Below are positions 3,685-41,043 of a DNA stretch of 42,366 nucleotides, one piece after another. Positions within the stretch are counted from its first letter, which is position 1; the number at the start of each line of letters is the position of its first letter. The stretch is from the NCBI GenBank assembly GCA_001873135.1, contig MNYP01000046.1, forward strand, positions 1 through 42,366. The letters are read 5' to 3'. The notes below the pieces were generated by a model. The model ran no database searches and had not been told where the DNA came from. It saw only the letters and a list, made by a program, of their open reading frames with translations. Both the position numbers and the translations under genes were made by a program. Origin of the DNA: Helicobacteraceae bacterium CG2_30_36_10. Its GTDB lineage: Bacteria > Campylobacterota > Campylobacteria > Campylobacterales > Sulfurimonadaceae.

Positions 3685-3714
3685 CTTGGCATGTGTAAAC
3701 TTCCACATGCCAAG
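3685..3714. repeat. Inverted pair of the dispersed word (CTTGGCATGTGTAAA / CTTCCACATGCCAAG) just downstream of the histidine kinase stop
   Basis: Near-perfect hairpin read directly; right arm contains exact TTCCACATGCC (3701-3711), left arm a one-mismatch copy (3688-3698). Confidence 0.85.
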
Positions 3715-3717
3715 ACT

Positions 3718-4833
3718 CTACCACTTCAGGGTAAAACAACTGCCCTTTTCAAGCTTAGAGCTTAGTTCTATTTTTATGCCAAATTCATCACAAATCTGCT
3801 TAACTATACTAAGCCCTATCCCAAAACCACCGGCTATATTTGAACCTCTGACATAGCTTTTAAATATCAGTTGGTGCTTCTCTTTTGCAATGCCGATGCC
3901 CTCATCTTTTATACTGAAAAAGTTCTCTTTTAATGTGATGGTTATAGTTGTATTTGGCATGGAGTATTTTATGGCGTTAGAAATGAGGTTTGAAAAGAGC
4001 AGTCCTACTCTTGACTCTACTGCACTGAGGTAAGACTCCTCTATATCTGTTTTTATAGTAATCTCTTTAGCCCTTGTCAGCTCTGCATAATACTCTATAC
4101 TTTGCATTAAAATAGCTTTTAAATCTAAAAGTTCTGAGCTCTGTTTTGGTGCAGCAAAGTTCAAATATGAAAGAGATTGGTAGATGCTGTAAAGCTGCTT
4201 TGTACTTATAGATATATTTGTTAAAATTTTTGCATCATACACCTGCTTTTGCAGTGCTCTTTTTGAACTCATTTTCAGGGCTGTGATTGGCGTATTTAAC
4301 TCATGGGAGATATCTTGTATAAACGCTTCAATCTGGCTTATTTTTTCATGAATCGGTCGCATAAAAAGTTTTGAGAGTATAAAAGATATTATTACTATAA
4401 CTGCAAATATCAAGCCCATTATTACTAACACTTCTCTTTGAAGCGTAGTAAGCTTTTTATGATATTCATCTGTTTTAACAACTACATATTGCATGGCTAA
4501 ATGTTCTTGCACGGCAGAAGAGACTAAAACTTTAAAGCCATCTTTTTCAAAGTAGTTTTGCTCATAAACTTTCTGTTGTATTATTGGAATAAGAGAGTAC
4601 TCATAGCCCTCTTCTGCTTTTGGAAGTGTTAATTTTTTGTTCATCATTTGGGCATTTATAACAACTCCCGCGACTCTGTCTGCAAGATGCTGCAGTTTAT
4701 AGTAAACAGTGTTTTCGAGTGAGCTTTTTTGGGCACTGTAGTACCAAAATCCACTCAGCAGTACAAAGAGTAAAGAGGAGCCTAAATAAAGCGCCAAAAA
4801 GGAGTAGAGTGATTTTTTTTCAAGACTATTCAA
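3718..4833 (-). CDS. Sensor histidine kinase of a two-component system
   Basis: Two TM segments; H-box ISHELNTPITALK; N-box LISNAIKYS; G-boxes DEGIGIAKE and GFGIGLSIVKQ; overlaps response regulator gene. Confidence 0.93.
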   Translation of the reverse strand: MNSLEKKSLYSFLALYLGSSLLFVLLSGFWYYSAQKSSLENTVYYKLQHLADRVAGVVINAQMMNKKLTLPKAEEGYEYSLIPIIQQKVYEQNYFEKDGFKVLVSSAVQEHLAMQYVVVKTDEYHKKLTTLQREVLVIMGLIFAVIVIISFILSKLFMRPIHEKISQIEAFIQDISHELNTPITALKMSSKRALQKQVYDAKILTNISISTKQLYSIYQSLSYLNFAAPKQSSELLDLKAILMQSIEYYAELTRAKEITIKTDIEESYLSAVESRVGLLFSNLISNAIKYSMPNTTITITLKENFFSIKDEGIGIAKEKHQLIFKSYVRGSNIAGGFGIGLSIVKQICDEFGIKIELSSKLEKGSCFTLKW

Positions 4834-5473
4834 ACTTATACCCCTCGCCTCTTACATTTAAAATATGCTCTTTACCGAGATATTTTCTAAGCTCTTTTAT
4901 GAGAGTTCTTATAGCGTCTGGGGATGGCATCTCGTCATACTCCCAAAGGTTTTGAAGCATCTCATCCACGCTGACAACACGGTGACGATTTTTATAGAGG
5001 TAGTGCAAAACTGCGCTCTCTTTTGGGCTGAGTGTGTAGGCAATATCTGCACAACGAAGCATGTGAGTTTGTCTGTCAAACTCTATATTTGAGGCAAGTT
5101 TAAGAAGTGAGTTTAGTCCAAAATGCTTTTTTATATTCTCCACTCTCTGCGCCAACTCTTCTAAATCAAAAGGTTTTTTTATAAAGTCATTCGCACCCGA
5201 TTCAAAAGCCGCTTTTAGATACTTTGTATCATGAAAAGCGGTTATAAAGATAGCCGGAGTCTCATCATGAAAACTTCGCAAACTTTTTAGAAGTGAAATG
5301 CCGTCTCCATCAGGCACATTTATATCAAAGATATACAAATCAAAGTTACTCTTTTCGCTTAAACCAAGAGCCTCTTTCATGCTGTAAGTATGGGTGACCT
5401 CATAATTTTCTTGCAAAAAATCTACTAAGATATTTGATAAAACAGTGTCGTCCTCTAGGAGTAAAATTTTCAT
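4826..5473 (-). CDS. OmpR/PhoB-family response regulator; start at MKILLLEDD (5473), not the listed 5515
   Basis: Receiver LLLEDDTVLSNIL...DINVPDGDG...KKPFDLEEL and winged-helix C-terminus RTLIKELRKYLG...RGEGYKFE; the extra 14 N-terminal codons run through the repeat hairpin. Confidence 0.93.
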   Translation of the reverse strand: MKILLLEDDTVLSNILVDFLQENYEVTHTYSMKEALGLSEKSNFDLYIFDINVPDGDGISLLKSLRSFHDETPAIFITAFHDTKYLKAAFESGANDFIKKPFDLEELAQRVENIKKHFGLNSLLKLASNIEFDRQTHMLRCADIAYTLSPKESAVLHYLYKNRHRVVSVDEMLQNLWEYDEMPSPDAIRTLIKELRKYLGKEHILNVRGEGYKFE

Positions 5474-5489
5474 AGAAGTATTATATACT

Positions 5490-5523
5490 ATTTCCACATG
5501 CCAGAACTTTGGCATGTGGAAAT
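5490..5523. repeat. Perfect inverted pair of the dispersed word, TTTCCACATGCCA-GAACTT-TGGCATGTGGAAA, between divergent genes
   Basis: 14-bp perfect stem read directly; two exact copies, 5492-5502 and 5511-5521. Confidence 0.95.
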
Positions 5524-5525
5524 TC

Positions 5526-5547
5526 CCTCACAAACTCCTCACAGACT
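5526..5547 (+). promoter_or_regulatory. Tandem 11-bp direct repeat CCTCACAAACT CCTCACAGACT upstream of the -10; candidate response-regulator binding site
   Basis: 10/11 identical adjacent repeats, followed by TATAAT at 5553-5558 and the 5583 start codon. Confidence 0.6.
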
Positions 5548-5552
5548 ATAAA

Positions 5553-5558
5553 TATAAT
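5553..5558 (+). promoter_or_regulatory. Candidate -10 (TATAAT) of the efflux operon
   Basis: Consensus hexamer 25 bp upstream of the ATG at 5583. Confidence 0.5.
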
Positions 5559-5582
5559 TGCACATAATAAAAAGGATTACAG

Positions 5583-5963
5583 ATGAACAGATTGGCAAAA
5601 ATATTTTTAGCAGCTCTTTTAGGAGCTGCTTTACTCCAAGGTGCGGCATTTGAAAAAACAGCGAAGACTGGTGCTACGCAGGTTGAACTCAGTTCAGAGA
5701 AACCGCTTACAAGCGGGAAGAACACTTTAACTTTGGTAGTTTTAAATGAAGAGTATAAAGATGCCGCAGTCAGCGTAAAAGCTTTTATGCCGGCTATGCC
5801 GGGAATGCCTCATATGGAGAGTCTGAGTGAGGCTGTTAGCTTGGGAAAGGGGAAATACAGAGTTGATTTAAATCTTGCTATGAGAGGAACTTGGCAGCTA
5901 CATATATTTATTACGCCTAAAGAGGGTAAAAAAGTCAGAGTCAAGAGTTCACTCAATCTCTAA
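5583..5963 (+). CDS. Small exported FixH/YtkA-like protein with Met-rich MPAMPGMPHM motif
   Basis: Signal peptide MNRLAKIFLAALLGAALLQGAAF; beta-sandwich-like pattern with GKYRVDLNLAMRGTWQLHIFI; first gene of the efflux operon. Confidence 0.75.
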   Translation: MNRLAKIFLAALLGAALLQGAAFEKTAKTGATQVELSSEKPLTSGKNTLTLVVLNEEYKDAAVSVKAFMPAMPGMPHMESLSEAVSLGKGKYRVDLNLAMRGTWQLHIFITPKEGKKVRVKSSLNL

Positions 5964-5972
5964 AGGTTTATT

Positions 5973-7166: not shown

Positions 7167-8134
7167 GATTTTTATTTTTAATAGCACTGCTAATAACGAT
7201 TCCACATGCCAAAGAGGCAACGGTAAAACAGCTCTTTGGCGTACAGACCGTAAAAGTAAAACTGCTTGCACATGCCAAGAGTATAAAAAGTTATGGCTTT
7301 GTGAGAGTTGATGACGCAAGGGTTTATGACGTCAGCCCGAGATTCGGCGGCTATGTAGAGGTTTTATATGCTGATACGCTTTATAAAAAAGTTACCAAAG
7401 GAGAAGCGCTTGCAAAAGTCTATTCCCCTGAAGTTCTAAAAGCAAAAGATGAATATAGAAACAGTGTCAATTATGCAAAAAATAGAACTATGATTGAGAG
7501 TTCAAAAACAAAACTGCAGCTTCTTAACATTCCACATGCCGAGATAGATACAAAAATTTCAAACTTTACAACAATTGTCTCACCAGCAGATGGATATCTT
7601 TTTAAAAAAACACTCAACAACAACTCCGCTTTTAAGGCTAAAAGTCTGCTTTTTAAGATTGTAAATCTCGAGAGTGTCTGGGTCGAGGTAAAGATTTATC
7701 AGGAGCAGTTGGCTTTGCTTGAAAATGTTGAGAGCTTTACCTTTTCAACTGTGGCACTCAAAGAGAGTTTTGAAGCAACAAGAGGAGAAATATACCCTCA
7801 GCTTGATGAGAAAGAGGCAAGTTTTACCCTAAGAGTTGCGCTCAAAAATCCACATGCCAAACTAAAACCGGGAATGTATATGAGTGTTGTGATGAGCCAG
7901 AGTAAAGAGAAGTATTTAACCCTTCCCGCTACTGCCGTTATTAGAAAAAACGGTGCTTTTTATGTCTTTGTTGTTGGAGAGTACGAGGGTGAATATGAGC
8001 CGCTTATGGTAGATGTAGAGGTTTTAAACCCTGACACCTACATCATAAAAAGCACTCTTAAAGAGGGCGATGAAGTTGTCAACAATGCGCTCTTTATGAT
8101 GGACAGTGATGCCCAAATAAATGCTCTCTACTAA
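7163..8134 (+). CDS. RND efflux periplasmic adaptor (CusB/HlyD-like)
   Basis: Adaptor pattern: VSPRFGGYVEVLYADTLYKKVTKGEALAKVYSPEV...IVSPADGYLF...LKPGMYMSVV; 4-bp overlap with upstream gene. Confidence 0.88.
   Translation: MRFLFLIALLITIPHAKEATVKQLFGVQTVKVKLLAHAKSIKSYGFVRVDDARVYDVSPRFGGYVEVLYADTLYKKVTKGEALAKVYSPEVLKAKDEYRNSVNYAKNRTMIESSKTKLQLLNIPHAEIDTKISNFTTIVSPADGYLFKKTLNNNSAFKAKSLLFKIVNLESVWVEVKIYQEQLALLENVESFTFSTVALKESFEATRGEIYPQLDEKEASFTLRVALKNPHAKLKPGMYMSVVMSQSKEKYLTLPATAVIRKNGAFYVFVVGEYEGEYEPLMVDVEVLNPDTYIIKSTLKEGDEVVNNALFMMDSDAQINALY
7200..7210 (+). repeat. Exact TTCCACATGCC copy (encodes IPHAK)
   Basis: Direct read. Confidence 0.95.
7530..7540 (+). repeat. Exact TTCCACATGCC copy (encodes IPHAE)
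   Basis: Direct read. Confidence 0.95.
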
Positions 8135-8144
8135 AGGCTAGTTT

Positions 8145-11100
8145 ATGATAGAAAAAATTATAGAGTTTAGTGTCAAAAACAAATTTTTGCTGCTCATAGC
8201 TACACTCTTTTTAGCTTTTGCCTCTTTTTGGGCACTTAAAAATACGCCTCTTGATGCTATTCCAGACCTCTCTCCTCCTCAGGTAATTGTAAAAATAAAC
8301 TGGGCGGGGCAGTCTCCTGAAATCATAGAGAATCAAGGAACCTATCCGCTTATCTCGCAGTTTTTGGCTATTGCAAATATTGAGACGGTACGAGGTTTTT
8401 CTACCTATGAGAATGGTCTGATATATATTATATTTAAAGAGGGAACCGACCTTTACTGGGCAAGAAGCAGAGTCTTAGAGCAGTTGACTTCCGTGCAGTC
8501 TTCGCTTGATAGTTCCATGAAAGTAACTCTGGGTCCCGATGCAAGCGGTGTTGGCTGGGTATATGAGTACGCTCTAAAATCAAAAACAAAAAATCTCTCC
8601 GAACTTAGAACTCTGCAGGACTACTACTATAAATATGCGCTTTTGGGAGTTGATGGAGTCAGTGAAGTGGCTTCCGTGGGCGGTTTTGTGCCGACTTACC
8701 AAGTCACTCTAAAGAACGATACTCTTGTTAGATACAACCTCAGCATTCAAGATATAGCCAAAACTCTCAAAGCTAACAACAATGACACAGGCGGACGGAT
8801 AGTCATCCAAAACGGCTACGAATGGATGGTTCAAGCCAAAGGGTACGTGCAAAACTTAGACGACATCCGCTCACTTGTTGTTGCCACAAAAGCCGGTATT
8901 CCCCTAACCATAAACGATATAGCAAGAGTTGAACTCACACCCGCGGCTCGCAGAGGCGTAGCCGATTTGAACGGCGAGGGTGAAGTCGTTGGCGGGATTG
9001 TTATGGTTCGTTATGGCGAAGATGTCTACGCGACCATTAAACGAATAGAAAAGAAGATGGGTGAGTTAAAAGTCGACGGCGTTGAAGTCGTTGAAGTTTA
9101 TAATCGCTCACGACTGATTGAAAAAGCTGTTGGGACACTCAAGTCTACTCTTATTGAAGAGAGTATTATCGTCATAGTAGTTATTGCTCTCTTTTTGATG
9201 CATCTGCGCTCCTCTTTTATAGTCATCATTATCTTGCCGCTTACAATCGGTGCGACATTTTTACTTATGAAACTCTTTGGCGTCGGCTCAAATATTATGA
9301 GTCTCGGCGGAATTGCCATTGCAATCGGAGCGATGGTTGATGCAACCATAGTTATGATAGAAAATGCCCATAAGAGCATCATAAAAGAGGAGGAGAAAAA
9401 GGGAGAATCCCTCTCTAAAGAGGAGAGATTTGAAGTGATTTTAAACTCTTCAAAAGTAGTCGGTCGTCCGATATTTTTTGCTCTCTCTTTGGTTGTGGTC
9501 TCGTTTTTGCCTATCTTTGCACTCTCGGGACAGGAGGGACTCCTCTTTACTCCGCTTGCCTTTACAAAAACATTCGCAATGATGGCAGGTGCGATTCTCT
9601 CTATTACTGTAGTGCCTGTTTTAATGCTCTATTTTGTAAAGGGGAAAATCTTAAATGAGCGTAAAAATCCACTCAATAGATTTTTCATCTGGCTCTACAC
9701 TCCCATACTCACTTACGGACTTAAACTAAAGTATCTAGTGCTTGTGCTTGTAGTTGTGGCACTTGGGTACATCTATCCGCTTTATAGCGGTCTGAAATGG
9801 GAGTTTATGCCTCCGCTCAATGAGCAGAGTGTTATGTATATGCCCGTTACTCCATACGGAATTAGTGTGGACCAGAGCAAGATGCTTACTCAAAAAACAG
9901 ATGCCATCATAAAATCATTTCCTGAAGTGGCTATTGTTTTTGGAAAAGGGGGTCGTGCCGACTCTGCAACCGACCCTGCTCCCCTTGGAATGATTGAGAC
10001 TATCATAACTTTTAAACCCCAGAGTGAGTGGCGGGAGGGAATGACTTATGAAAAACTTATGAGAGAACTCGAAGAAGCTCTGAGAGTTCCTGGACTTGTA
10101 AACTCATGGACCTACCCAATTCGTGGACGTATAGATATGCTTTTAAGTGGCATCAGAACACCTCTTGGCATAAAACTTTACGGCAAAAATGCGGAGGGTC
10201 TGCAAAAATATGCCAAAGAGATAGAGGCAGTTTTAAGAGGATACGACAAGACTTTATCTATTTTTGCCGATCAGGCAAGTGCCGGGTATTATCTCGATAT
10301 AGATATAGATGAGAAAAAACTTGCACGCTACAATCTTTCAAAAGATTATCTGTTAGAGTATGTCTCAACGGCTGTTGGAGGCATGAAAATCTCTACTATG
10401 TATAAAGGCTTAGAGCGTTACCCGATAGCACTTAGATTTGAAGAGCAAGAGAGAAGAGACATAGAGTCACTAAAAAATATTATGATAAAGAGTCCGCTAG
10501 GCTTTGTTCCCCTGAGCACCTTTGCTAAAGTCGAGTACCGTGAGAGTGCCTCAGTCATTAAGAGTGAGATGGCTTCTCCCGTGACCTTTATATATATAAC
10601 TCCACATGCCGGTATAAATGCTGCCGAGTATAAACAAGAGGCGAAAAAACTGCTACAAAATATCAAACTGCCGGCAGGGTATTATATAGAGTGGGCAGGA
10701 CAGAGTGAATACCTTGACTCCGCTATGGCTAAAATAGTCTGGATAATCCCAGCCGTTTTAGTAATGATTTTAATGCTTATTTACTTTGCTCTCAAAGAGT
10801 TTATTCCGACGCTTATAGTCTTTTTCACTCTCCCTTTTGCTCTTTTGGGCGGGCTGCTTTATATAGATATTTTAAACTTTAACATGAGCATCGCTGTAGT
10901 CGTAGGCTTTTTAGCCCTCCTTGGAGTTGCGGCTGAAACAGCTATAGTAATGATAGTTTACCTCCAAGAGGCACTCGATACAGCCAAGGAGAAATATGCT
11001 GAGAGTTTTGGACTCCAAGAGCTAAACGAGGCGATTTACGAAGGTGCTGTTGCAAGAGTAAGACCAAAACTTATGACGGTTTTTGCGATACTAGCAGGAC

Positions 11101-11823: not shown

Positions 11824-13485
11824 CTATCCTTTTTTCAATTCCTCTATGATTTTATCAGCCACTCTAAAAGAGTTTGCATAAATAGTCCAGGTGTACGGGA
11901 CACTGCCTCCTGTTGGCATAAAGCTCGCATCTGTCACATATAAGTTTTGCAACTCGTGCGCTTTACAGTTTTTGTCTAAAACTGAGGTTTTTGGGTTATC
12001 TCCAAACCTGCAGCCGCCGGCGACCAAGTTTGGCGGCGGTGCTGATGAAATACTGTAGGAAATCTCCTCCGCGCCCATCTCTTTTAAAACCTGTGTCGCT
12101 TTTTTTGCTAAATACTCTCCAATTTTTACATCTTGGGGATGTCCCCAAAGGTTAATCGCACCAACCGGCATGTGGAATTTATCTTCAACTTCAGCATCTA
12201 CACTTACAAAACACTCGTCACTCGGGAGCCAATCATTAAAAACTTCAAAGCTCAGCACTCTTGAAGTTGTTAGAGTTTTATGTATCTTTTTACGAAGCGC
12301 ATCTCCCCAGATAATATCTCCCTCATCATTGTAAAACTCTCTTGAAGCACGCGAGACAATGTTTGCGTGTTCAAATAAAAAGTCAATTGTTCCGCCCTTG
12401 TACTTTTTACCGGACTCTTCATAATCATACCAATCTTGCAAGGAGCGGTTAAAAAACACCCCCGCTTGCATCAACTCTATTTGCTGATTTTTTGTCAGGT
12501 TCTCAAACTTAAAACGACCCTGTCCAGAACCGCCACCGGAAAAGATTAGGTTGCGTCCGACCTCTTTGCTATTGTTTGCTATGCCATGTGGAAAATATAT
12601 GTTTTTGGAGTTTAAAAGAAGTCGCGCACTCTCTATGGCTTGAGCAGCTACGACAAAAATTTTAGCCCTCACTTCATGCGACTGCATATTTTTATCGTAG
12701 TAATGCACTGTAGTTATTTTACTCTCATCGCTCTCAAGTTTATAGACAAAAGCTTCTGTGATTATCTCCGCCTTGCATTTTTGCAAAAGAGCCGCTCTTG
12801 CACTCCCTTTTGCTCCGGTTGCACAGCCGTAGCTTCCACAAAAGTTACTATAAGAACAAGCGTTTCTATTTAGCGTGGCATGTGGAAGTATGGCTCTGGG
12901 AGTCGGTATACTTTCAAACCCTAAATTTGCACATGCCGAGTCAAACCACTTAGTCACGCCATTCTCTTCAAGCTTGGCATGTGGAAAGTTCGGAGTACTG
13001 CGTGGTTCAGAAAATTTGTGTTTCGTAATATTGCCGGACACGCCCACAACTCTTTCAACCTTCTCATAGTAAGGCTCCAGCTCTTCATAACTTATAGGCC
13101 AGTCAACAACATTTGCACCCTCAATTTCTCCATAAACGCTTTTGAGTTTAAAGTCGTTTGGCTTCATTCTGTGAAAATAACCGCTCATAAGATTAGACGA
13201 GCCTCCGACCATTGAGCCGTTCCAAAAACTCCACTCCGCTTCACTCCCGACATAACGGGTTATTGAGCCATCTTCTTCTCTTTGGTTGATTACATGCTGT
13301 TCCTCTTTTAAAAGAGGGGTGAACATATTTCTGCGCGAAACTCCAAGTTCATCTTTGGAAAAATCTTCTTCTTTATAGTTTTTTCCCTTTTCTAAAACAA
13401 CTACATTAAAACCTGCATTGCTGAGTTCATACGCAATCGGTGAACCGCCTGCTCCGCTTCCTATTATACAAACATCATACATCAT
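11824..13485 (-). CDS. GMC-family FAD oxidoreductase (gluconate 2-dehydrogenase-like large subunit)
   Basis: N-terminal FAD motif CIIGSGAGGSPIAYELSNAGFNVVVLEKG; C-terminal NLYVTDASFMPTGGSVPYTWTIYANSFRVADKI. Confidence 0.9.
   Translation of the reverse strand: MMYDVCIIGSGAGGSPIAYELSNAGFNVVVLEKGKNYKEEDFSKDELGVSRRNMFTPLLKEEQHVINQREEDGSITRYVGSEAEWSFWNGSMVGGSSNLMSGYFHRMKPNDFKLKSVYGEIEGANVVDWPISYEELEPYYEKVERVVGVSGNITKHKFSEPRSTPNFPHAKLEENGVTKWFDSACANLGFESIPTPRAILPHATLNRNACSYSNFCGSYGCATGAKGSARAALLQKCKAEIITEAFVYKLESDESKITTVHYYDKNMQSHEVRAKIFVVAAQAIESARLLLNSKNIYFPHGIANNSKEVGRNLIFSGGGSGQGRFKFENLTKNQQIELMQAGVFFNRSLQDWYDYEESGKKYKGGTIDFLFEHANIVSRASREFYNDEGDIIWGDALRKKIHKTLTTSRVLSFEVFNDWLPSDECFVSVDAEVEDKFHMPVGAINLWGHPQDVKIGEYLAKKATQVLKEMGAEEISYSISSAPPPNLVAGGCRFGDNPKTSVLDKNCKAHELQNLYVTDASFMPTGGSVPYTWTIYANSFRVADKIIEELKKG
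12167..12177 (-). repeat. Exact GGCATGTGGAA copy
   Basis: Direct read. Confidence 0.95.
12877..12887 (-). repeat. Exact GGCATGTGGAA copy (gene sense LPHAT)
   Basis: Direct read. Confidence 0.95.
12976..12986 (-). repeat. Exact GGCATGTGGAA copy (gene sense FPHAK)
   Basis: Direct read. Confidence 0.95.
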
Positions 13486-13973
13486 AACAGAGGCTCCTTC
13501 GGACGTGGCATGCCTGCGGCAAACTCAAGCCATTTCTGCCCGTTTTCATTTTTATTTACACCGTAAACTTTGTCACTGAATGTTGCTTCCATTACATACG
13601 ACAAGAGAGCATAGATCCAATTCTCGCCCCATTTTTCTTTTGAAACAATTTTTAGTATCTCTTGACGCTTGTCCGCTGAGAGTTGTGTGTAGGTTTTTTT
13701 GTACTGGGCAACCGCTTCTTCATTAAGCCATTGCGCTCCATTTCTTATAGAAGTTTTCTCTTCTTCGGTTACTCTGGTATGGTGCAGTATTATCAGTAAA
13801 TAAGCCCGAACATCTACTTCTAACTTCTTGGCATGTGCAAACAGATCTTCTGCGGCAATTACCATAGTATCTAAAGGATAGACTGCTCCAAAAAGTTTAC
13901 CTGCGGACATTACTATAACTGCAGTGGTTAAAAAGCTAGTTTTTAAAAAAGCTCTACGGGAGTTCAAAATCAA
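13482..13973 (-). CDS. Gluconate 2-dehydrogenase subunit 3-like protein with Tat signal
   Basis: N-terminus SRRAFLKTSFLTTAVIVMSAGKLFGA; 4-bp overlap with GMC gene. Confidence 0.82.
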   Translation of the reverse strand: MILNSRRAFLKTSFLTTAVIVMSAGKLFGAVYPLDTMVIAAEDLFAHAKKLEVDVRAYLLIILHHTRVTEEEKTSIRNGAQWLNEEAVAQYKKTYTQLSADKRQEILKIVSKEKWGENWIYALLSYVMEATFSDKVYGVNKNENGQKWLEFAAGMPRPKEPLL

Positions 13974-16944: not shown

Positions 16945-16970
16945 GGCATGTGGAAACATTTCCACATGCC
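16945..16970. repeat. Perfect inverted pair of the dispersed word GGCATGTGGAAA-CA-TTTCCACATGCC
   Basis: 12-bp perfect arms read directly; two exact copies, 16945-16955 and 16960-16970. Confidence 0.95.
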
Positions 16971-25464: not shown

Positions 25465-28226
25465 TAAAAAAAATTTATCTTTTTGTGAACTACGTTCTCC
25501 TCTTCATTATTGCTCTTGTCGTTATTTTTGTAGCTATTGCCTCGCACCCGCAAAGCTTAGAATATTTTGGAGATAAATTTTTAAAAAAGAGCGGAGTTAA
25601 TTACAGCAAAATAGAGGGTTCGCTTTTAGAGGGCATAACCCTATCTGACGTAAACTATTCGGATGCGATTTTTATGAAAACTCTTCAGATAAACTACGAC
25701 CTTGCCCTGCTTGTTAAGCCCTCACCTAAAATAAAAAAAATTAGCATTACCGGAGTGTCGATTTATCCTGAAAATTTTGCTTCTAAAGATGAGAAGAGTG
25801 AGTTTTTTCTCCCCTCTTTTGAAATTTCTGAACTTATTCTTGAGAAAACGCAAATTATTCTTGATAAGCAAACCTTCTCCTTTGACCTAAATGCTTCGGG
25901 ACTCAGTTATGATGAACAACTCAATGTAAAAAAGCTCTCCATGCTGCTAGAGACTCCCTACGCTAAAGCAAAAATAGAGGGGAAAATAAAATCGAACCGC
26001 TTGATTGCAAAGAGTTTCATTACACCGGAAAAATCCATCACATCAGAGTATCTTGGTTTTTTAGAAGGTCTTCCTCAAAGTTATACCTTAGATTTGGATG
26101 CCTCTTTAGAGAGTTTATGCATAAACACACAACTAAATACTCTTAGACTCAGTGCAGACAAAAATCTGACTCTGCAAAATATAGCTCTTGACTTACGCTA
26201 CTTTATCAAAGAGAACTCTTTTAATTTGGATACTTCTTACTCTCTCTCTTACAGTGAGTTTGAAGCCAACGTAGAACAAAAAGCTCTTTTTACCCCCTCG
26301 GGTGTCTACTCTACAGAGTTAAATGCCACGCTTACAAAACAGCCTTTTGAGTTGCCGTTTAAAGCTTTGCATGCCAAAATATCGGGCGATACACAAAATA
26401 TGAGAGCGACTCTTCAGGCCGGTCCGCTGGAGTTCACTATGCTTGGCAAAGAGTATAAAGAGTTTGTCATTGATGCAAAAAGCGATAGACTCGCCCTCTC
26501 TTTTATACCTATTCTCCCCGAGCTGCTCAAAAAAAATGTTTTGAGTCTAAAAGCAGATGCCATCCTCGACCTCTCCCCCTTTTCTCTTAAAGGGAGTCTC
26601 CTCTCAGAGGGAAAATTTTCTAAGATAACTACAAGCTTTGAAATAGATGAAAAATCAAAACTTTTGCAGGCAACTTTATATCCTAAGTCTGAATCTGAAA
26701 TATTCAAAAGCTATCCTATAGAGAAGTTTTCTCCCTTAAAGCTTGTTTATTATAAAAGCGACAAAACGGAGCTTTTTAACGCTGATGCCAACATGGCAGG
26801 TCTCACTCTTTTTAAAAAAGGCAAAGAGATAAACGGCTGGGGGAACATAGGCTCAAGCTATTTTGAAACAGAAAAAAATCTACTCTACGGGCAAGAAGAG
26901 GTGACATTTTTAGCCAAAATACCCTCAATCAAGAAACTTTTAGAAGAGTTCACGGCAAAAAATTCTTCCGACACACTTCTTATTGACGGTGAAGCCGACA
27001 TAAAAGCAACACTCAGCTTTTCTCAAAAAATATCGCTCACAAGTTCTTTGCACATGCCGTGGTTAATGGTAAAAGTTGATGAAAAAACAAGCTACAGTGC
27101 CCAAAATATTTATATAAAGTCTACCTTATATGAGAATAAAATACAAATCGATGAGTACACAATGAGGGTTTTAGAGCACGATATTTACTCAAAAAGAGCC
27201 TCGCAAATCTCCTTTAAGCAAAATGCAACTATAGAGCTTAAAGAGTTTTGGATTTATGACACTCTCCTTTTAAACGGCTCCTACAATCTAGCCAAGGAAC
27301 AAGGCAAACTACGCCTAAGAAGCAATCGTTTTAATTATAAAGGCGAAGAGGGAAATGTTACTGTAAAAGCCGATATTAAAGCGAGTTTTGAGAGTAATTC
27401 TACTCAGAAAATTGAAGGTGAGGTTACGCTTATTGATGGGGTAATTTCGTATGAGCCGAGCTCAGACTACACTCTTTCTGATGACATAATTATTATACAA
27501 GATATCCGTCCGCCTACAAAGGTAAAACGTTCTATAAATATCCAGATAAATTCTCTAAAACCCATTGCTTATAAAACTGAAAATATAGACATTCTCGTTA
27601 CCCCCGACCTTCTTGTTTCTCAAAAGCCAGACTCACCTTTGAGTATTTCTGGAATGTTACGCATTGAAGAGGGGACGGTTACAGGAGAAGGAAAAGAGTT
27701 TGAATTTGAAAAAAGCGAGATTTATTTTAAGGGCTCACACCCCATAAACCCAAGTTTAAATTTAAATCTGCATTACTACACTTTAGACAATACAGACATC
27801 AAAATATTTATTACCAACACACTTGCTTTACCGGTTATCATCCTCTCATCCACCCCTCAAATGAGCCAAAATGACATCATGTCCTATATTTTATTTGGTG
27901 AGGCAGCCTCTGCAGATTTTGACAGTTCGGGAGAAGGTAGCAACAAACTTGCCGTCAATTCTCTGCTTTTAGCTACCGGACTCAAACAAATATTCAATGA
28001 CACGGCAGGCATTAAGCTAGACACTTTAAACATCATTACCAACAAAGAGGGAACTTTAGGGTATGAAATAGGAACACGCTTTAACAAGCAGATTCGGATT
28101 GTCTACAGAAACGACACCATTTCAAGCGTCATCCTGCAATATAGCCTCAGCAAGTCTATCAGACTCGATGTAGATGTACGTGAAACCGGACAGGGAGTCA
28201 CAATACTTTATGTTAAGGATTTTTAA
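25461..28226 (+). CDS. tamB: TamB-like translocation/assembly module
   Basis: 921 aa, N-terminal TM anchor; C-terminal DUF490-like region IIILSSTPQMSQNDIMSYILFGEA...QYSLSKSIRLDVDVRETGQGVTILYVKDF (begins PVIILSSTPQM). Confidence 0.88.
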   Translation: MIKKIYLFVNYVLLFIIALVVIFVAIASHPQSLEYFGDKFLKKSGVNYSKIEGSLLEGITLSDVNYSDAIFMKTLQINYDLALLVKPSPKIKKISITGVSIYPENFASKDEKSEFFLPSFEISELILEKTQIILDKQTFSFDLNASGLSYDEQLNVKKLSMLLETPYAKAKIEGKIKSNRLIAKSFITPEKSITSEYLGFLEGLPQSYTLDLDASLESLCINTQLNTLRLSADKNLTLQNIALDLRYFIKENSFNLDTSYSLSYSEFEANVEQKALFTPSGVYSTELNATLTKQPFELPFKALHAKISGDTQNMRATLQAGPLEFTMLGKEYKEFVIDAKSDRLALSFIPILPELLKKNVLSLKADAILDLSPFSLKGSLLSEGKFSKITTSFEIDEKSKLLQATLYPKSESEIFKSYPIEKFSPLKLVYYKSDKTELFNADANMAGLTLFKKGKEINGWGNIGSSYFETEKNLLYGQEEVTFLAKIPSIKKLLEEFTAKNSSDTLLIDGEADIKATLSFSQKISLTSSLHMPWLMVKVDEKTSYSAQNIYIKSTLYENKIQIDEYTMRVLEHDIYSKRASQISFKQNATIELKEFWIYDTLLLNGSYNLAKEQGKLRLRSNRFNYKGEEGNVTVKADIKASFESNSTQKIEGEVTLIDGVISYEPSSDYTLSDDIIIIQDIRPPTKVKRSINIQINSLKPIAYKTENIDILVTPDLLVSQKPDSPLSISGMLRIEEGTVTGEGKEFEFEKSEIYFKGSHPINPSLNLNLHYYTLDNTDIKIFITNTLALPVIILSSTPQMSQNDIMSYILFGEAASADFDSSGEGSNKLAVNSLLLATGLKQIFNDTAGIKLDTLNIITNKEGTLGYEIGTRFNKQIRIVYRNDTISSVILQYSLSKSIRLDVDVRETGQGVTILYVKDF

Positions 28227-28285: not shown

Positions 28286-28825
28286 ATGAAAAAGAAAGTT
28301 TTACTTTTACACGGCTGGGGCGGAAGTGATTTTCCGCATTGGCAGAGTTGGTTGGCGGGTGAGTTGGCTAAAGATTATAACACTGTGAGTTTTTTAAAAC
28401 TGAGCAACTTTGACACGCCTAGGCTTGCTATGTGGAAAGAAGAGTTACAAGAACATCTGAGTGATTTCAGACCTGACATAGTTGTTTGTCACTCATTGGC
28501 AAATACCCTTTGGTTTCATGTATGTAACGATGGTTCTATAGACGAAGTGCAAAAACTTTACCTCGTAGCACCGCCAAGTCTAAACTGTAAAATAGAAGAA
28601 CTCAAAGAGTTTTTTCCACTCAATGTTCCGAATAATCCACATGCCAAAGAGGTGCTTCTCATCACCTCAACAAATGACCCTTATATGAGTGAATCTGAGG
28701 CAAAAGATTTACAAGAAAAACTAGGCGTTCCTATGAAAGTACTACAAAATGCAGGACACATTAATGCAGATAGCGGTTATGGAGAGTGGACATGGATTTT
28801 GCAAGAAATTAAAAGTAATATGTAA
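28286..28825 (+). CDS. RBBP9/YdeN-like alpha/beta hydrolase
   Basis: KKKVLLLHGWGGSDFPHWQSWL, DIVVCHSLANTLW, NAGHINADSGYGEW. Confidence 0.85.
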   Translation: MKKKVLLLHGWGGSDFPHWQSWLAGELAKDYNTVSFLKLSNFDTPRLAMWKEELQEHLSDFRPDIVVCHSLANTLWFHVCNDGSIDEVQKLYLVAPPSLNCKIEELKEFFPLNVPNNPHAKEVLLITSTNDPYMSESEAKDLQEKLGVPMKVLQNAGHINADSGYGEWTWILQEIKSNM

Positions 28826-29172: not shown

Positions 29173-31269
29173 ATGACAAATTTAGTAACCCTGCTTACGC
29201 AAAAAACAAACCTCAAAAAAGAACATATTCTCAGTATTTTAAAGCTTTTAGATGAAGGCGCTACTATTCCTTTTATTGCACGTTACAGAAAAGAGATGAC
29301 GGGCGGAGCGAGCGATGAAGTGCTTCGTGATTTTGAGACTATTTACGAGGGCACTAAAAAGCTTTTAGAGAGAAAAGAGGAAGTCTCCCGCCTTATAAGT
29401 GAGCGGGCGACTTTAACGGAGGCTCTTAAAAAAAGCATAGAAGATGCTGAGAGTTTGCGGATTTTAGAGGACATTTACCGACCCTTTAAAGAGAACAAAA
29501 CCTCTCGTGCTAGTGTCGCTGTAGCCAATGGTTTAGCGCCTCTAGCAGACACTCTGCAGGGTGCAAAGCTTACAAAAGAAGAGCTACTTCCACATGCCAA
29601 GCAGTATGTTAAAGGTTTAGTAACTTCACCGGAAGATGCCATAAAAGGGGCTCAAGATATTTTAGCCCAGAGATACGCCGAAGAGCCTCGAGAACGTGAA
29701 GCCATTAGAAACTCTATGCTCCGGTTTGGCTCTTTGCAGACGAAAAAAACTAAAAAGTTTGATGAAAACGGAAGCTTTAAAAATTTGGCTGAGAAAAGTG
29801 AAAAGGTAGCTTACATTCCATCGCATCGTTACCTTGCCATTATGCGTGGCGTGCGAGAAAAAGAGCTCTCAGTGAAGATTTCCATCGACATTGAGCGCAT
29901 TGAAGAGAATATAAAAGCGTATAAAATTCCTCGTGATGCACAAAGTTCTAAAGAGTATCTTTACGAAGCCTATAAAGATGGACTAAAAAGACTTCTTCTC
30001 CCTTCCATTGAGCGTGAAGTTCAAGCGGAGTTAAAAGAAAAAGCCGACATTGCCGCCATCTCGGTTTTTGGCAAAAACCTTAACCAGCTACTTATGACGC
30101 CACCGGTTACAAAAAGAGTTATTTTAGGCGTTGACCCGGCATATGTAAGCGGCTGCAAGTTAGCCGTGATTGATGAAAACGGCAACTTTTTGGAGTCTGC
30201 GGTTATCTACCCGACTCAGCCTAAAAACGATTATACTAACTCCAAAAACAAGGTGTTAGCGCTCACAAAAAAGTACAACATCACAGGTGTAGCCATAGGT
30301 AACGGCACCGGTTCAAGGGAGACACAGGAGTTTTTTGCACAGCTCAACGAGAAAGAAAGTGCCAAACTCAGTTATACGGTTGTGAGCGAAGCCGGAGCCT
30401 CAGTTTACAGTGCTTCTAAACTCGCACAAGAGGAGTATCCTGACCTTGACGTGACCATTCGCGGAGCTATTTCTATAGCCGGCAGACTGCGTGACCCCAT
30501 GGCAACTTTAGTAAAAATCGACCCGAAATCTTTAGGAATTGGACAGTACCAACACGATGTCGACCAAAAACTTTTGGAGAAAAAACTAGGCGATGTCACG
30601 GGCGATTTGGTAAACCGTGTCGGCGTAGATATCAACTCCGCATCTGCCGCTTTACTCTCCTATGTCGCAGGAATCGGCTTAAAAATAGCAAAAAACATTA
30701 TAGATTTTCGCCAAACAGAGGGCAACTTTACGACAAAAGCACAACTGCTAAAAGTCAAAGGTTTAGGCAAAAAAGCCTACGAACAGGCGGCAGGATTTAT
30801 CCGCATAAAAGAGGGACAGAATGTATTTGACAACAGTGGCATTCATCCTGAGAGTTATGAGGTGGCAAAAAAACTAGACGGTATGGATTTAAACAGCGTT
30901 GACGTGCAGGAAAAAGCACAAGCTTGGCATGTGGGAATACAAACACTCAAAGACATCATCACAGAGCTTCAAAAGCCCGGTTTTGACCCTAGAGAAGATT
31001 TACCTCCTATTCCATTTAAAGAGGGCTTAACAGACATCAAAATGCTCAAAGAGGGAAGTTTTGTCTCAGGCATAGTCCGTAACATCGCAGATTTTGGTGC
31101 CTTTGTAGACATTGGACTTAAAAATGACGGTATGATTCACATCTCAAAAATGAGCCAAAAACGCATCGCCCACCCCTTAGAGATTCTCTCTCTCAACCAG
31201 TTTTTACCACAAATAGAAGTCATAGCCATAGACCACGAAAAAGGAAAAGTGAGTTTGAGTTTGGTATAA
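29173..31269 (+). CDS. tex: Tex-family RNA-binding transcription accessory protein
   Basis: GATIPFIARYRKEMTGG, IGNGTGSRET, helix-hairpin-helix, C-terminal S1 domain GIVRNIADFGAFVDIGLKNDGMIHISKMS. Confidence 0.95.
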   Translation: MTNLVTLLTQKTNLKKEHILSILKLLDEGATIPFIARYRKEMTGGASDEVLRDFETIYEGTKKLLERKEEVSRLISERATLTEALKKSIEDAESLRILEDIYRPFKENKTSRASVAVANGLAPLADTLQGAKLTKEELLPHAKQYVKGLVTSPEDAIKGAQDILAQRYAEEPREREAIRNSMLRFGSLQTKKTKKFDENGSFKNLAEKSEKVAYIPSHRYLAIMRGVREKELSVKISIDIERIEENIKAYKIPRDAQSSKEYLYEAYKDGLKRLLLPSIEREVQAELKEKADIAAISVFGKNLNQLLMTPPVTKRVILGVDPAYVSGCKLAVIDENGNFLESAVIYPTQPKNDYTNSKNKVLALTKKYNITGVAIGNGTGSRETQEFFAQLNEKESAKLSYTVVSEAGASVYSASKLAQEEYPDLDVTIRGAISIAGRLRDPMATLVKIDPKSLGIGQYQHDVDQKLLEKKLGDVTGDLVNRVGVDINSASAALLSYVAGIGLKIAKNIIDFRQTEGNFTTKAQLLKVKGLGKKAYEQAAGFIRIKEGQNVFDNSGIHPESYEVAKKLDGMDLNSVDVQEKAQAWHVGIQTLKDIITELQKPGFDPREDLPPIPFKEGLTDIKMLKEGSFVSGIVRNIADFGAFVDIGLKNDGMIHISKMSQKRIAHPLEILSLNQFLPQIEVIAIDHEKGKVSLSLV
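29588..29598 (+). repeat. Exact TTCCACATGCC copy (encodes LPHAK in Tex)
   Basis: Direct read. Confidence 0.95.
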
Positions 31270-34796: not shown

Positions 34797-34807
34797 TTCC
34801 ACATGCC
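34797..34807 (+). repeat. Exact TTCCACATGCC copy in non-coding DNA
   Basis: Direct read. Confidence 0.95.
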
Positions 34808-34931: not shown

Positions 34932-35444
34932 TTATCCCCATGCTTCTATCTTCGCATTCAGATCAATATGTGTCAAATAAAGTCTCAAATCAAACTCTAT
35001 CTGATGATAATTAGGCTCCATATATTCACAAAGTTTATAAAAGGCTTTATTATGCTCTTTTTCTTTAAAATGAGCCAGTTCATGCACGACTATCATGCGT
35101 AAAAACTCTTCGGGTACATATTTAAACATCGAGGCGATTCTAATCTCATTGCTGGCTTTTAGTTTGCTTCCCTGTACTCTTGAAATAAAATGGTGCGTGC
35201 CTAAAGCGTTGTGAATAACATTAATTTTGCCATCATAAAGAGTTTTACTCAGAGGTGGCGTTCTTTTCATATATTCGTTTTTTAAATCATTCACATACGA
35301 AAAGAGTGCTTTATCATTTTTCATGGCATGTGGAAATGGATACTTTTTAACAAGGTGGAGCTCAAGAGTGTTTTGTTCTATAAGCTGATGCACCTGTTTT
35401 TTTGTCTGCTCATGGTAGTGGTTTAGATATTTTAACTCTTTCAT
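34932..35444 (-). CDS. YgjP/SprT-like (DUF45) zinc metallopeptidase
   Basis: VVHELAHFKEKEHNKAFYKLCEYMEPNYHQ. Confidence 0.88.
   Translation of the reverse strand: MKELKYLNHYHEQTKKQVHQLIEQNTLELHLVKKYPFPHAMKNDKALFSYVNDLKNEYMKRTPPLSKTLYDGKINVIHNALGTHHFISRVQGSKLKASNEIRIASMFKYVPEEFLRMIVVHELAHFKEKEHNKAFYKLCEYMEPNYHQIEFDLRLYLTHIDLNAKIEAWG
35325..35335 (-). repeat. Exact GGCATGTGGAA copy (gene sense FPHAM)
   Basis: Direct read. Confidence 0.95.
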
Positions 35445-36323: not shown

Positions 36324-36342
36324 GCCTAAGCTCTACCAAAAT

Positions 36343-36369
36343 AGTGGAGATCCTCTCCACTGTTTTTTT
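36343..36369 (+). terminator. Rho-independent terminator
   Basis: AGTGGAGA-TCC-TCTCCACT followed by G then T7. Confidence 0.9.
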
Positions 36370-36381
36370 AAACTAAACTTT

Positions 36382-37377: not shown

Positions 37378-37592
37378 TATTTAGACCCGGAGTTGCGTGG
37401 TAAATCACATTTTTTTGAAAAAATACAGAGTGGACAGAAATTAAACAATCCAGCTAAGAGAGGAATAACGCCAAGAAAAAACCATGCAGCTCCATCCATT
37501 GCACCTAGTTGTATAACACCTGTTATTACTAGAGCTAAACCAATAATTATGCGAAATACTCTGCAAAATTTTCTAACTTTATTGTAATCCAT
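37377..37592 (-). CDS. DUF2892-like small membrane protein
   Basis: MDYNKVRKFCRVFRIIIGLALVITGV...FFLGVIPLLAGLFNFCPLC. Confidence 0.78.
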   Translation of the reverse strand: MDYNKVRKFCRVFRIIIGLALVITGVIQLGAMDGAAWFFLGVIPLLAGLFNFCPLCIFSKKCDLPRNSGSK

Positions 37593-37699
37593 TTAATACC
37601 TTTATGTTTATATAAATATTTGGCAATTATATCGTTATTAAGTAAAATTAATACAAATATGCTAAAATCGCTTATAATTAATAAACAGGAATTATTTAA

Positions 37700-38245: not shown

Positions 38246-38847
38246 TGGCTTTTAAATACGCTATTGCACTGACCGGAGGGATTGCTACGGGCAAGAGTAC
38301 TGTAGCTTCACTTTTAGCCCTCAATGGCATGAGAGTCATAGATGCAGATACGATTTCGCATGAAATTTTGGATGCTCACATCGCTTGGGTCAGAGAGACT
38401 TTTGGCGAAGAGTATCTGGATGGCTCAAAAGTAAACAGAGCAAAACTTGGAGTTTTAATATTCTCCGACAATAAAGCGAAGAAAACATTAGAAGATTTTT
38501 TACATCCAAAAATTAGAGCTGAAATAGAAAAACGAAGCATTAAGCAAGACACCTTTAGGTTCCCCTACCTCATAGATATACCGCTTTTTTTTGAAAAATC
38601 AGGTTACGATATAAAAGAGTGTGTGGTTGTTTATACCCCTCCTGAGGTTCAGTTAGAGAGATTTATGAAGAGAAACGGCTACTCCAAAGAGGAGTCTCTT
38701 AAAAGAATTAACTCTCAAATGCCTATAGATGAGAAGAAAAAAAGAGCGACTTGGGTAATAGATAACTCTAAAAACCTTAAACATCTCCAAGCTGAATGTG
38801 AAGAGTTTGTCGAAGTGCTTACAAACAAGTACAAAAACAAGAAATAG
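38245..38847 (+). CDS. coaE: Dephospho-CoA kinase
   Basis: IALTGGIATGKSTVASLLALNGMRVIDADTISHEIL. Confidence 0.95.
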   Translation: MAFKYAIALTGGIATGKSTVASLLALNGMRVIDADTISHEILDAHIAWVRETFGEEYLDGSKVNRAKLGVLIFSDNKAKKTLEDFLHPKIRAEIEKRSIKQDTFRFPYLIDIPLFFEKSGYDIKECVVVYTPPEVQLERFMKRNGYSKEESLKRINSQMPIDEKKKRATWVIDNSKNLKHLQAECEEFVEVLTNKYKNKK

Positions 38848-38913
38848 AGATATTATCTCAATACAAAGTATTGAATCGAAATATATTAAGGCATACAAAT
38901 TATAGGAGAGATA

Positions 38914-39657
38914 ATGACAGTATCTAAATATTGTGCTAGCGGAAATGACTTTGTTGTGTTTCACACTTTTATTAAACAAGAAAGGGGGGAACTGGCAAAG
39001 AAACTTTGTCATAGACAAAATGGCGTCGGAGCAGATGGTCTCATAGTTTTAATTCCACATGCCAAGTATGATTTTGAGTGGCAGTTTTATAACTCTGATG
39101 GGAGTGAAGCTGAAATGTGCGGAAACGGCAGTCGTGCCTGTGCGCATTACGCCTATGTAAATAAGCTCGCAGATGCTAAGATGAGTTTTTTAACTCAAGC
39201 CGGCATTATCTCTGCCCAAGTTGATGATACAATGGTTTTAAGTGAGTTGACTCCACCTGTTGTTTTAGAAAAGAACATAGAGTATAATGGGAAAAAATGG
39301 ATAAAGATTGACACAGGTGTTCCACATCTTGTTAATTTTACTGAGGATATTAATACATTTGATTTACAAGAGGCAAGAGAACTTCGCTATAAATATAACG
39401 CCAATGTAAATATAGCTTTCGTAGATGGAGAGAACTTAAGAGTTAGAACATATGAGAGAGGTGTCGAAGCTGAAACATTGGCATGTGGAACGGGAATGGC
39501 AGCTTGTTTTTACGCAGCTCTTTTAGAGAAAAAAGTTGCAGATATGATAGAAGTCTACCCTACAAGCGGGGAGACTCTTCATTTGGGTATGAATAAGAAA
39601 ACGATTACTTTTAGAGGTGAAGTGAAAAAAGTGTTCGTAACTGATTGGGTAGAATGA
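38914..39657 (+). CDS. dapF: Diaminopimelate epimerase
   Basis: KYCASGNDFVVF, GSEAEMCGNGSRACAHYAY, GVEAETLACGTGMAACFYA. Confidence 0.95.
   Translation: MTVSKYCASGNDFVVFHTFIKQERGELAKKLCHRQNGVGADGLIVLIPHAKYDFEWQFYNSDGSEAEMCGNGSRACAHYAYVNKLADAKMSFLTQAGIISAQVDDTMVLSELTPPVVLEKNIEYNGKKWIKIDTGVPHLVNFTEDINTFDLQEARELRYKYNANVNIAFVDGENLRVRTYERGVEAETLACGTGMAACFYAALLEKKVADMIEVYPTSGETLHLGMNKKTITFRGEVKKVFVTDWVE
39053..39063 (+). repeat. Exact TTCCACATGCC copy (encodes IPHAK in DapF)
   Basis: Direct read. Confidence 0.95.
39480..39490 (-). repeat. Exact GGCATGTGGAA copy inside the DapF ACGTG active-site motif
   Basis: Direct read. Confidence 0.95.
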
Positions 39658-39669
39658 GGTATAAAAACT

Positions 39670-41043
39670 CTATTGCAAAATCCAAACAGAGAAATTTTTT
39701 CCCTTGATTTTGCCGTTTGAGAGTTTTTTATGGGCTGCATCTATTAACCTACTCTCGATAGCTACATAACTCTGTCTCTCATAAATATCTATTTTACCTA
39801 TCGCACTTCCCGCAAGTCCAGCTTCACCTGTTAATGCACCTAGCAGGTCACCTGCACGGACTTTGTCTTTTTTTCCGCCCTCTATTACAAGTGTTACATA
39901 GGGAGGTCTCATCTCGAAACCCTTTACTTTTTTGAGCATACTAGAGTCTTCAAAAAGACGAGTTGTGTTTTGATACTCGTTTGCATTTTGAATCTCATAT
40001 GTATTGTAAAGAGTCATAGCAAGCCCTTCATTACCTGCTCGACCTGTTCTTCCTATGCGGTGAGTGTAGGTCTCCTCGCCATGTGGAATGTCGTAGTTGA
40101 CAACCATCGCCAACTCTTTTATGTCAAGTCCACGAGCTGCCACATCTGTTGCTACTAACACCGTGCAGCTTTTGTTAGCAAACTGAACTAACACATCGTT
40201 TCTCTCATACTGCTCTAAGTCCCCGTGTATCGCCAGTGCATCGATGTGAAGTTTTTGCAACTGCTCGGCTATCTCTTTTGCTTCTAGTTTTGTGTTAGTA
40301 AAAACAATGGCATTTTCAGGTAAGAATGTGCTAAAAATATTGACTAAAGTCTCTAGTTTATTACCATTTTGTGCTTCATAAAATCTTTCAGTTATTTTGT
40401 TCGCTACCTCGGTAGAGACTGTCTTGACACTCATCGCATCTTTTTGAACTCTTTTACTAATGGCGGTTATCTCATCTGTATAGGTCGCTGAGAAGAGAAG
40501 GGTCTGTCTTGTCTTTGGCATGTACTCTAAGACTTTGTCAATCTCTTCGATAAAGCCCATGTCGAGCATTCTGTCTGCTTCGTCAAAAACCAGAGTCTCT
40601 AAATGTTCAAGGGTCAAAGTTTTTTTATCTAGATGCTTTAAAATTCGCCCCGGGGTTCCCACGATTATATGCGCACCGTGAGCCAGAGAGCCAAGCTGTG
40701 GACCAAAAGCCGCACCGCCGCAAAGAGTCAAGATTTTAATATTATGCGCACATCTTGCAAGAACGCGAAGCTCTTTTGCAACTTGGTCAGCTAGCTCTCT
40801 TGTAGGACAAAGAACAAGAGCTTGGACACGAAACTTTTTGACCTGCAGTTTGTGTAACAAGCCAATACCAAAAGCGGCTGTTTTACCGCTTCCCGTTTTT
40901 GCCTGTGCTATGACATCACGACCCTCTAAAATAAGAGGAAGCGTCTCCGCCTGAACCGGAGTCATCTCTGTATAGCCGATTTCATTTAAATTGTGTAGCA
41001 TCTCTTTTGAGAGAGGAAGGTTTGAAAAGTCAGTAGTATTCAT
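39670..41043 (-). CDS. dbpA: DEAD-box RNA helicase, DbpA-like
   Basis: AQAKTGSGKTAAF, VFDEADRMLDMGF, FSATYTDE, HRIGRTGRAG; C-terminal DbpA-type RNA-binding domain VRAGDLLGALTGEAGLAGSAIGKIDIYERQSYVAI. Confidence 0.92.
   Translation of the reverse strand: MNTTDFSNLPLSKEMLHNLNEIGYTEMTPVQAETLPLILEGRDVIAQAKTGSGKTAAFGIGLLHKLQVKKFRVQALVLCPTRELADQVAKELRVLARCAHNIKILTLCGGAAFGPQLGSLAHGAHIIVGTPGRILKHLDKKTLTLEHLETLVFDEADRMLDMGFIEEIDKVLEYMPKTRQTLLFSATYTDEITAISKRVQKDAMSVKTVSTEVANKITERFYEAQNGNKLETLVNIFSTFLPENAIVFTNTKLEAKEIAEQLQKLHIDALAIHGDLEQYERNDVLVQFANKSCTVLVATDVAARGLDIKELAMVVNYDIPHGEETYTHRIGRTGRAGNEGLAMTLYNTYEIQNANEYQNTTRLFEDSSMLKKVKGFEMRPPYVTLVIEGGKKDKVRAGDLLGALTGEAGLAGSAIGKIDIYERQSYVAIESRLIDAAHKKLSNGKIKGKNFSVWILQ

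Follow-up and report, generated by a model that had tools for sequence, protein, structure and literature searches.

The question raised by this locus is why one 11-base word, TTCCACATGCC, should recur throughout the window (the whole stretch analysed, 42,366 nucleotides, 38.4% GC). To our knowledge, two unrelated bacterial families are the only ones in which sequence tags for DNA uptake have been described, and a search for literature on uptake sequences in Sulfurimonas or Campylobacterota found none. An earlier note on the window had read the repeat as uptake-signal-like. The phylum which that note mentioned, Campylobacterota, proves to be correct, the genus being Sulfurimonas. The analysis indicates that TTCCACATGCC is very probably the word of a putative DNA-uptake-sequence system in one Sulfurimonas clade.

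The word in the window

The window holds 15 exact copies of this non-palindromic word and 12 copies with one mismatch (Table 1), all at the positions given in the earlier note, the exact ones being divided 8 on the plus and 7 on the minus strand. Dinucleotide shuffles of the window gave 0.01 exact copies, in agreement with the earlier hand estimate of about 0.01, and 0.49 copies within one mismatch; no shuffle attained the observed count. Shuffling in which every protein was preserved and synonymous codons alone were redistributed gave 0.24 copies (maximum 2) versus 11 observed in called genes. The base after the core is A in 12 of 15 copies and G in 3, as had been described, while the conserved word proved somewhat longer than noted, with a full consensus of ATTTCCACATGCCAAA and CCACATGC as the strictest core. 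The head-to-head pairs described earlier are present, and tail-to-tail pairs occur as well. Hairpins are predicted for the inverted pairs 3688/3701 (-18 to -20 kcal/mol), 5492/5511 (-22.5 kcal/mol) and 16945/16960 (-19.7 to -21.9 kcal/mol).

Table 1. Exact and one-mismatch copies of TTCCACATGCC in the window
Feature	Position	Strand	Context
One mismatch, TTCCACATGAC	1456..1466	-	GGDEF/EAL gene
One mismatch	3688..3698	-	Left half of inverted pair 3688/3701
Exact	3701..3711	+	Right half of inverted pair 3688/3701; intergenic, past histidine-kinase gene
Exact	5492..5502	+	Inverted pair with 5511; response-regulator gene 5' end / divergent intergenic
Exact	5511..5521	-	Second half of pair 5492/5511
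Exact	7200..7210	+	CusB-like gene
One mismatch, TTGCACATGCC	7266..7276	+	
Exact	7530..7540	+	CusB-like gene
One mismatch, ATCCACATGCC	7848..7858	+	
One mismatch, CTCCACATGCC	10600..10610	+	CusA/CzcA-family gene
Exact	12167..12177	-	GMC oxidoreductase gene
One mismatch, TTCCACATGGC	12583..12593	-	
Exact	12877..12887	-	GMC oxidoreductase gene
One mismatch, TTGCACATGCC	12927..12937	+	
Exact	12976..12986	-	GMC oxidoreductase gene
One mismatch, TTGCACATGCC	13830..13840	-	
Exact	16945..16955	-	Divergent inverted pair with 16960; mechanosensitive-channel gene 5' end
Exact	16960..16970	+	Second half of pair 16945/16960
One mismatch, TTGCACATGCC	27048..27058	+	tamB-like gene
One mismatch, ATCCACATGCC	28635..28645	+	
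Exact	29588..29598	+	tex gene
One mismatch, TCCCACATGCC	30926..30936	-	tex
Exact	34797..34807	+	Intergenic
Exact	35325..35335	-	YgjP-like gene
Exact	39053..39063	+	dapF
Exact	39480..39490	-	dapF
One mismatch, TTCCACATGGC	40078..40088	-	dbpA-like gene

Abundance and conservation

The earlier note had proposed a genome-wide count, a check of strand symmetry and comparison with a shuffled background, and each of these agreed with its reading. The genome from which the window comes contains 573 exact copies, 292 on one strand and 281 on the other, and none of the reversed word, which served as control.

Among 135 Sulfurimonas genomes, eight hold 318–946 copies of TTCCACATGCC; elsewhere among the 299 genomes of the order that were surveyed its counts are at background. 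The word-bearing species group together in the tree. In alignments of such species, about 74% identical in nucleotide sequence, 135 of 206 positions (66%) retain the word unchanged, versus 95 of 2060 (4.6%) for matched control 11-mers. The flanks of the word are average and not extra-variable, with 73.6% identity against a gene average of 73.8%. On a 226-kb contig the flanks are flat, and the conserved consensus extends over about 14–16 bases.

Alternative words in related species

Related species bear other words, CCCACATGCC and CCACATGCT, which are mutually exclusive with TTCCACATGCC. A palindromic alternative, CTACATGTAG/TTACATGTAA, has 300–551 copies in 12 genomes; written as YTACATGTAR it has 306–551 sites there, and the TTCCACATGCC-rich genomes all have 3–12 such sites. 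A weaker alternative, AGATGC, is degenerate and enriched 2–4 fold at most. The centre common to the words is ATG. When orthologous word positions were compared, ACATGT was found in G301 at 19/57 versus 6/61 controls (p=0.0017), and AGATGC in G415 at 9/61 versus 0/67 controls (p=0.0009), these figures being unique sites after removal of duplicate target sites (they were larger before). Both are the best sampled, with 400 kb more sequence; tested singly, G304, G126, G309 and G305 gave no significant sharing. That the alternative words in G301 and G415 occupy orthologous positions more often than controls suggests that a single system has several dialects. Membership in this set, and use of the same machinery, is likely though not certain for the palindromic and AGATGC words.

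Self recognition through methylation, the word holding a methyltransferase site as for CtsM in Campylobacter jejuni, is an improbable explanation: a short site would suffice, which leaves the 11–16 conserved bases, the hundreds-fold enrichment and the conservation over the flanks unexplained, even though DNA is chosen in the same order by methylated RATTY sites (PMC8468864), a CATG- or GATG-like centre recurs in all words, and some congeners show depletion of ACATGT/ACATGC outside words.

Orientation, placement and origin of the copies

The 226-kb contig is mostly of one GC-skew sign and carries 41 plus and 38 minus copies, without replichore polarity. Chi and KOPS motifs are strongly polar along the replichores. 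TTCCACATGCC shares with them that it is a short, frequent chromosome word, often intragenic as such motifs generally are; it differs in this lack of polarity, which the near-equal genome-wide strand counts repeat. With the inverted pairs, the restriction to a clade and the exclusive alternative words also against it, an orientation-dependent chromosome motif of this type, or a nucleoid-organising site, is very unlikely.

By placement, 63 words are coding (approximately 80% intragenic) and 16 intergenic, the latter being three times the intergenic share of the sequence. The intragenic words lie 34 along the gene direction and 29 opposite to it, and the coding words use all six frames, PHA being the most frequent reading. 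That preferred reading, together with the strong hairpins formed by the intergenic pairs, is what a regulator-binding site, a terminator element or a codon or peptide bias would have in its favour. We give such explanations little credence, since four-fifths of the copies are intragenic and split along and against the gene, six frames are in use, and synonymous-codon shuffles yield 3% of the observed number, 2.15 copies versus 62, an excess of about 29-fold. The inverted pairs, of which there are 7 close ones in G276 versus 1.64 expected, may secondarily be terminators. The longest word-free stretch, 17.5 kb, is tuf-nusG-rpl-rpoBC (the rpoBC/ribosomal operon); the word avoids the most constrained genes.

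Aligned comparisons with word-lacking orthologues were gapless in 120 of 121 cases, and the word is gained by substitution, without an insertion signature. A small mobile repeat (REP/MITE-like) spread through insertion can thus be practically discounted, the dispersal of the copies and some intergenic hairpins notwithstanding, given this gapless alignment, conservation that ends at about 16 bases and an 80% intragenic placement in six frames. Viral contigs yielded no inverted pair of the word; hits of this kind being infrequent, that carries little weight.

Competence genes and candidate receptors

The earlier note had also suggested a search for com genes, and comEC, dprA and pilin genes were found in the group. 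The comEC gene is present in the source genome and in 78 of 79 good congener genomes, and dprA in 17 of the 18 genomes searched, the exception being the incomplete source MAG; a pilin pair lies near comEC. All of these occur in TTCCACATGCC-lacking congeners too, and their presence therefore does not discriminate. Candidates for a receptor are the pilin pair near comEC and a PilV/W/X-like set (G276 C1:114515-120562). A search for a dialect-linked pilin singled out no receptor: of the pair near comEC, pilin 1 shows hypervariability whatever the species, while pilin 2 fails to separate the word-bearing ones.

In G352, which lies inside the clade, the word is eroded (83 copies versus 946 in its neighbour G351) and comEC is interrupted by an 8.1-kb word-free insertion, the remaining comEC reading frame looking young. 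Joint word erosion and comEC loss were seen in this one genome only; in G315 the word is eroded and comEC intact. The apparent absence of comEC from G414 was not taken as support: the adjacent dnaB is missing as well, so that an assembly gap is probable.

Comparison with known systems

The DUS of the Neisseriaceae are non-palindromic sequences of 10–12 bases with many copies on both strands and inverted intergenic pairs; their dialects track phylogeny around a short common core, and the words are more conserved than their flanks (PMC3630211, PMC2397512). A CTG core is found in all DUS dialects (PMC3630211). TTCCACATGCC resembles these sequences, whose receptor is ComP, in length, non-palindromy, occurrence on both strands, inverted pairs, dialects that go with phylogeny around a common inner core, and conservation over the flanks. 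It differs in lacking on either strand CTG, the mark of DUS by descent, in belonging to another phylum and in having one candidate dialect that is palindromic.

With the USS of the Pasteurellaceae it shares word length, strand symmetry, enrichment in its own genome and a density of the order usually attributed to USS. Haemophilus influenzae has roughly 1500 USS copies, whereas the present word has about 500–950. No long AT-rich flanking motif surrounds TTCCACATGCC, which lacks on both strands GCGG, the core that marks USS by descent (PMC12616744). In C. jejuni, uptake depends on methylation (CtsM, RATTY) and employs T2SS/T4P-like machinery and ComEC (PMC8468864). That system has in common with the present one the order, the choice of self DNA at uptake (putative here) and the T2SS/T4P-like machinery together with ComEC; it differs in using a short methylated site where an enriched long word is found here.

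A system analogous to DUS and USS, and independently evolved, appears to be the best explanation of these sequence data, and we infer uptake as the selective cause of the word. The reading of the earlier note is supported by the enrichment, the symmetry, the intragenic and paired intergenic copies and the conservation over flanks, and it further fits the avoidance of constrained genes, the dialects in relatives and the competence genes. Counts near background, a replichore strand bias or a regulator site, which that note had named as contrary evidence, were not encountered.

Under the uptake-word reading, a sequence-specific receptor on a competence pilus or pseudopilus would bind word-carrying DNA, ComEC would bring in a single strand, and this would replace the resident copy by recombination. 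Word-carrying alleles would enter and reach fixation more often, and words would therefore build up on both strands. They would gather mainly in the core genome, where protein and expression constraints permit, and be kept there by the drive. Neighbouring species would run the same system with other words.

Significance

Enrichment of a palindrome similar to YTACATGTAR extends to two more genera (G102, G065), of which one falls in another family, and the system may therefore be old in the order. On balance we favour a third, independent uptake-sequence system, in Campylobacterota, with at least 4–5 dialects (one of them palindromic) across one environmental genus, perhaps limiting exchange between species. 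If true, this third lineage, remote from both known families, would be an independent evolutionary replicate, and would bear on why uptake words exist, through biased-uptake drive or through selection for kin DNA. Dialects at common orthologous positions would make word turnover traceable between species, and the congeners with other words, among them the cultured species, are named test organisms. Environmental, chemolithotrophic bacteria would, if the reading holds, control gene exchange by sequence.

Distribution of the word

The 15 exact copies of the 11-base word TTCCACATGCC which the earlier note had placed in the window (8 on the plus and 7 on the minus strand), together with its 12 one-mismatch copies, were all recovered at the same positions; shuffling predicts 0.01 and 0.49, respectively. 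Of the 15 exact copies, 12 are followed by A and 3 by G, again as described. The genome as a whole, a draft of 2.0 Mb in 167 contigs, contains the exact word 573 times, 292 on one strand and 281 on the other; the reversed word, which served as a control, does not occur. At two sites in the window (Table) a mechanically called start codon, that of a response regulator and that of an MscS gene, falls within the word. The true starts are probably downstream, in the former case because the response-regulator profile match begins near residue 15.

A survey of 299 genomes of the order revealed more than a handful of copies only in this genome and one congener. Among 135 genomes of the genus, 318 to 946 copies were present in eight, 15–152 in about ten and 0–7 in the remainder. 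The word-rich genomes cluster together on a short-locus tree, and G315 and G352, in which the word is eroded, fall inside the cluster. Almost every named record with inverted word pairs is a Sulfurimonas, Sulfuricurvum-labelled or Helicobacteraceae/Campylobacterales draft. One contig with such a pair, JAJYNV010000332.1 (L040), is filed under a Bacillota draft genome and is likely a mis-binned Sulfurimonas contig.

Placement and conservation

On a 226-kb contig of genome G276 no k-mer is more enriched than the word (79 exact copies versus 0.07 expected), the consensus of which is ATTTCCACATGCCAAA with flat sequence further out on both sides. GC skew is positive over nearly all of this contig. 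The strand bias named earlier as a sign of a Chi- or KOPS-like motif is absent (41 plus, 38 minus), and this lack of polarity speaks against such a motif. Genes contain about 80% of the G276 copies (34 in the orientation of the gene, 29 opposed to it), which argues against a regulator site; intergenic copies are three times as frequent as length predicts. The word is read in all six frames, most commonly as PHA, and a synonymous-codon shuffle, the background proposed in the earlier note, yields 2.15 copies where 62 are observed; both results speak against coding bias. Spacing on the contig is near random (CV 1.1) except for an excess of close pairs (7 observed, 1.64 expected). The longest stretch of the contig lacking the word, 17.5 kb, is the tuf-nusG-rplK/A/J/L-rpoB-rpoC cluster, identified by eye from protein sequences. 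One-mismatch copies in G276 differ at positions 1, 9, 10 and 11 only, whereas in the eroded G315 the mismatches are distributed across the whole word.

The densest 20 kb of the G276 contig is the priA-comEC-dnaB stretch, and priA has five exact words within 1.9 kb. The Neisseria and Haemophilus words reportedly favour genome-maintenance genes.

At sites aligned between word-bearing species, the word was exactly conserved in 135 of 206 cases, versus 95 of 2060 control 11-mers matched for frame and composition, with every species pair counted in both directions. Nucleotide identity was 73.8% gene-wide and 73.6% at 7–45 bases from the word. Orthologous sites without the word aligned gaplessly in 120 of 121 comparisons which, with the absence of a flanking unit, speaks against a mobile repeat. 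Copies thus originate through substitution (or when alleles already substituted recombine) and are retained afterwards. The pattern is the same as that reported for the Neisseria word, for which exact conservation extends to 71% of copies (PMC2397512).

Competence genes

The search for com genes suggested earlier located comEC in this genome, and the gene is present in 78 of the 79 good genomes of the genus. Some 8 kb separate comEC from a prepilin-like gene pair that adjoins priA. Pilin sets of T2SS-like and of PilV/W/X-like type were also detected. A search of 18 genomes recovered dprA in 17, the exception being this genome, whose assembly is incomplete. The eroded G352 retains 83 exact words versus 946 in its neighbour G351, and an 8.1-kb insert (29% GC, 0 words) interrupts its comEC following approximately residue 176. 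This is a single natural case, of uncertain timing. The insert bears a FimT/GspH-like prepilin gene.

Words and genes located in Sulfurimonas and related genomes
Feature	Genome	Location
Response-regulator start within word	own genome (G000)	window 5515
MscS start within word	own genome	window 16967
comEC	own genome	contig C163, L208:4758-6032
Prepilin-like pair	own genome	L207:6431-7416
Prepilin-like pair	G276	C1:59402-60478
priA	G276	C1:60495-62384 (L141:495-2384)
Interrupted comEC region	G352	L219:1716-11113
Prepilin gene in insert	G352	L219:3703-4239
Dialect word CCCACATGCCAA	G342, G380	
Dialect word CCACATGC[T/C]	G400	
Palindromes CTACATGTAG and TTACATGTAA	G301	L226-L229, L292-L311
	G126	L232-L234
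	G309, G304	
	G065	L255
	G102	L249-L250
Looser AGATGC word	G415	L222-L225, L272-L291
	G305	L235-L237

Probable dialects in congeners

De novo word search of congeners revealed other words (Table), the counts of which are mutually exclusive between genomes. Genus-wide, YTACATGTAR has 306–551 sites in 12 genomes and, in TTCCACATGCC-rich genomes, 3–12, equal to the reversed control. At positions orthologous to TTCCACATGCC sites, G301 has in-register ACATGT in 19/57, versus 6/61 control sites with ACATGC outside the word (p=0.0017), and G415 has AGATGC in 9/61 versus 0/67 (p=0.0009); significance was not reached in four other genomes with little sequence. An alignment of priA gives a direct view of this sharing, with TTCCACATGCC, CTCTACATGTA and ATCTAGATGCA occupying one position. 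The dialect words have a common ATG centre, paralleling the CTG present in all Neisseria dialects (PMC3630211).

In a dozen Sulfurimonas genomes the palindromes recur hundreds of times, and G065 and G102, from two further genera of the order, are enriched in them as well. The palindromes are probably a sister dialect, although it would be unusual for an uptake word to be palindromic. AGATGC is 2–4 fold enriched, with loose flanks. G415 is strongly depleted in ACATGC (8 versus 45 expected) and ACATGT (2 versus 27), and in 400 kb of it (L272-L291) a group of words, CGCAACTGTAGC and GCTTCATTCGCA among them, is present in 12 copies each, which suggests a longer repeat of tandem or protein type.

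Relationship to known uptake sequences

Methylation-based DNA choice of the C. jejuni type (PMC8468864) may act additionally, but it would not account for how long and how conserved the word is. The best explanation is that the word is part of an uptake-sequence system, in which a putative uptake-pilus receptor would prefer DNA bearing the word and repeated transformation would both spread and maintain it. Neisseriaceae and Pasteurellaceae have been stated to be the sole families with uptake words (PMC12616744), and our literature search found no paper linking uptake sequences with Sulfurimonas or Campylobacterota. By descent the Sulfurimonas word is neither DUS nor USS, though it behaves like both.
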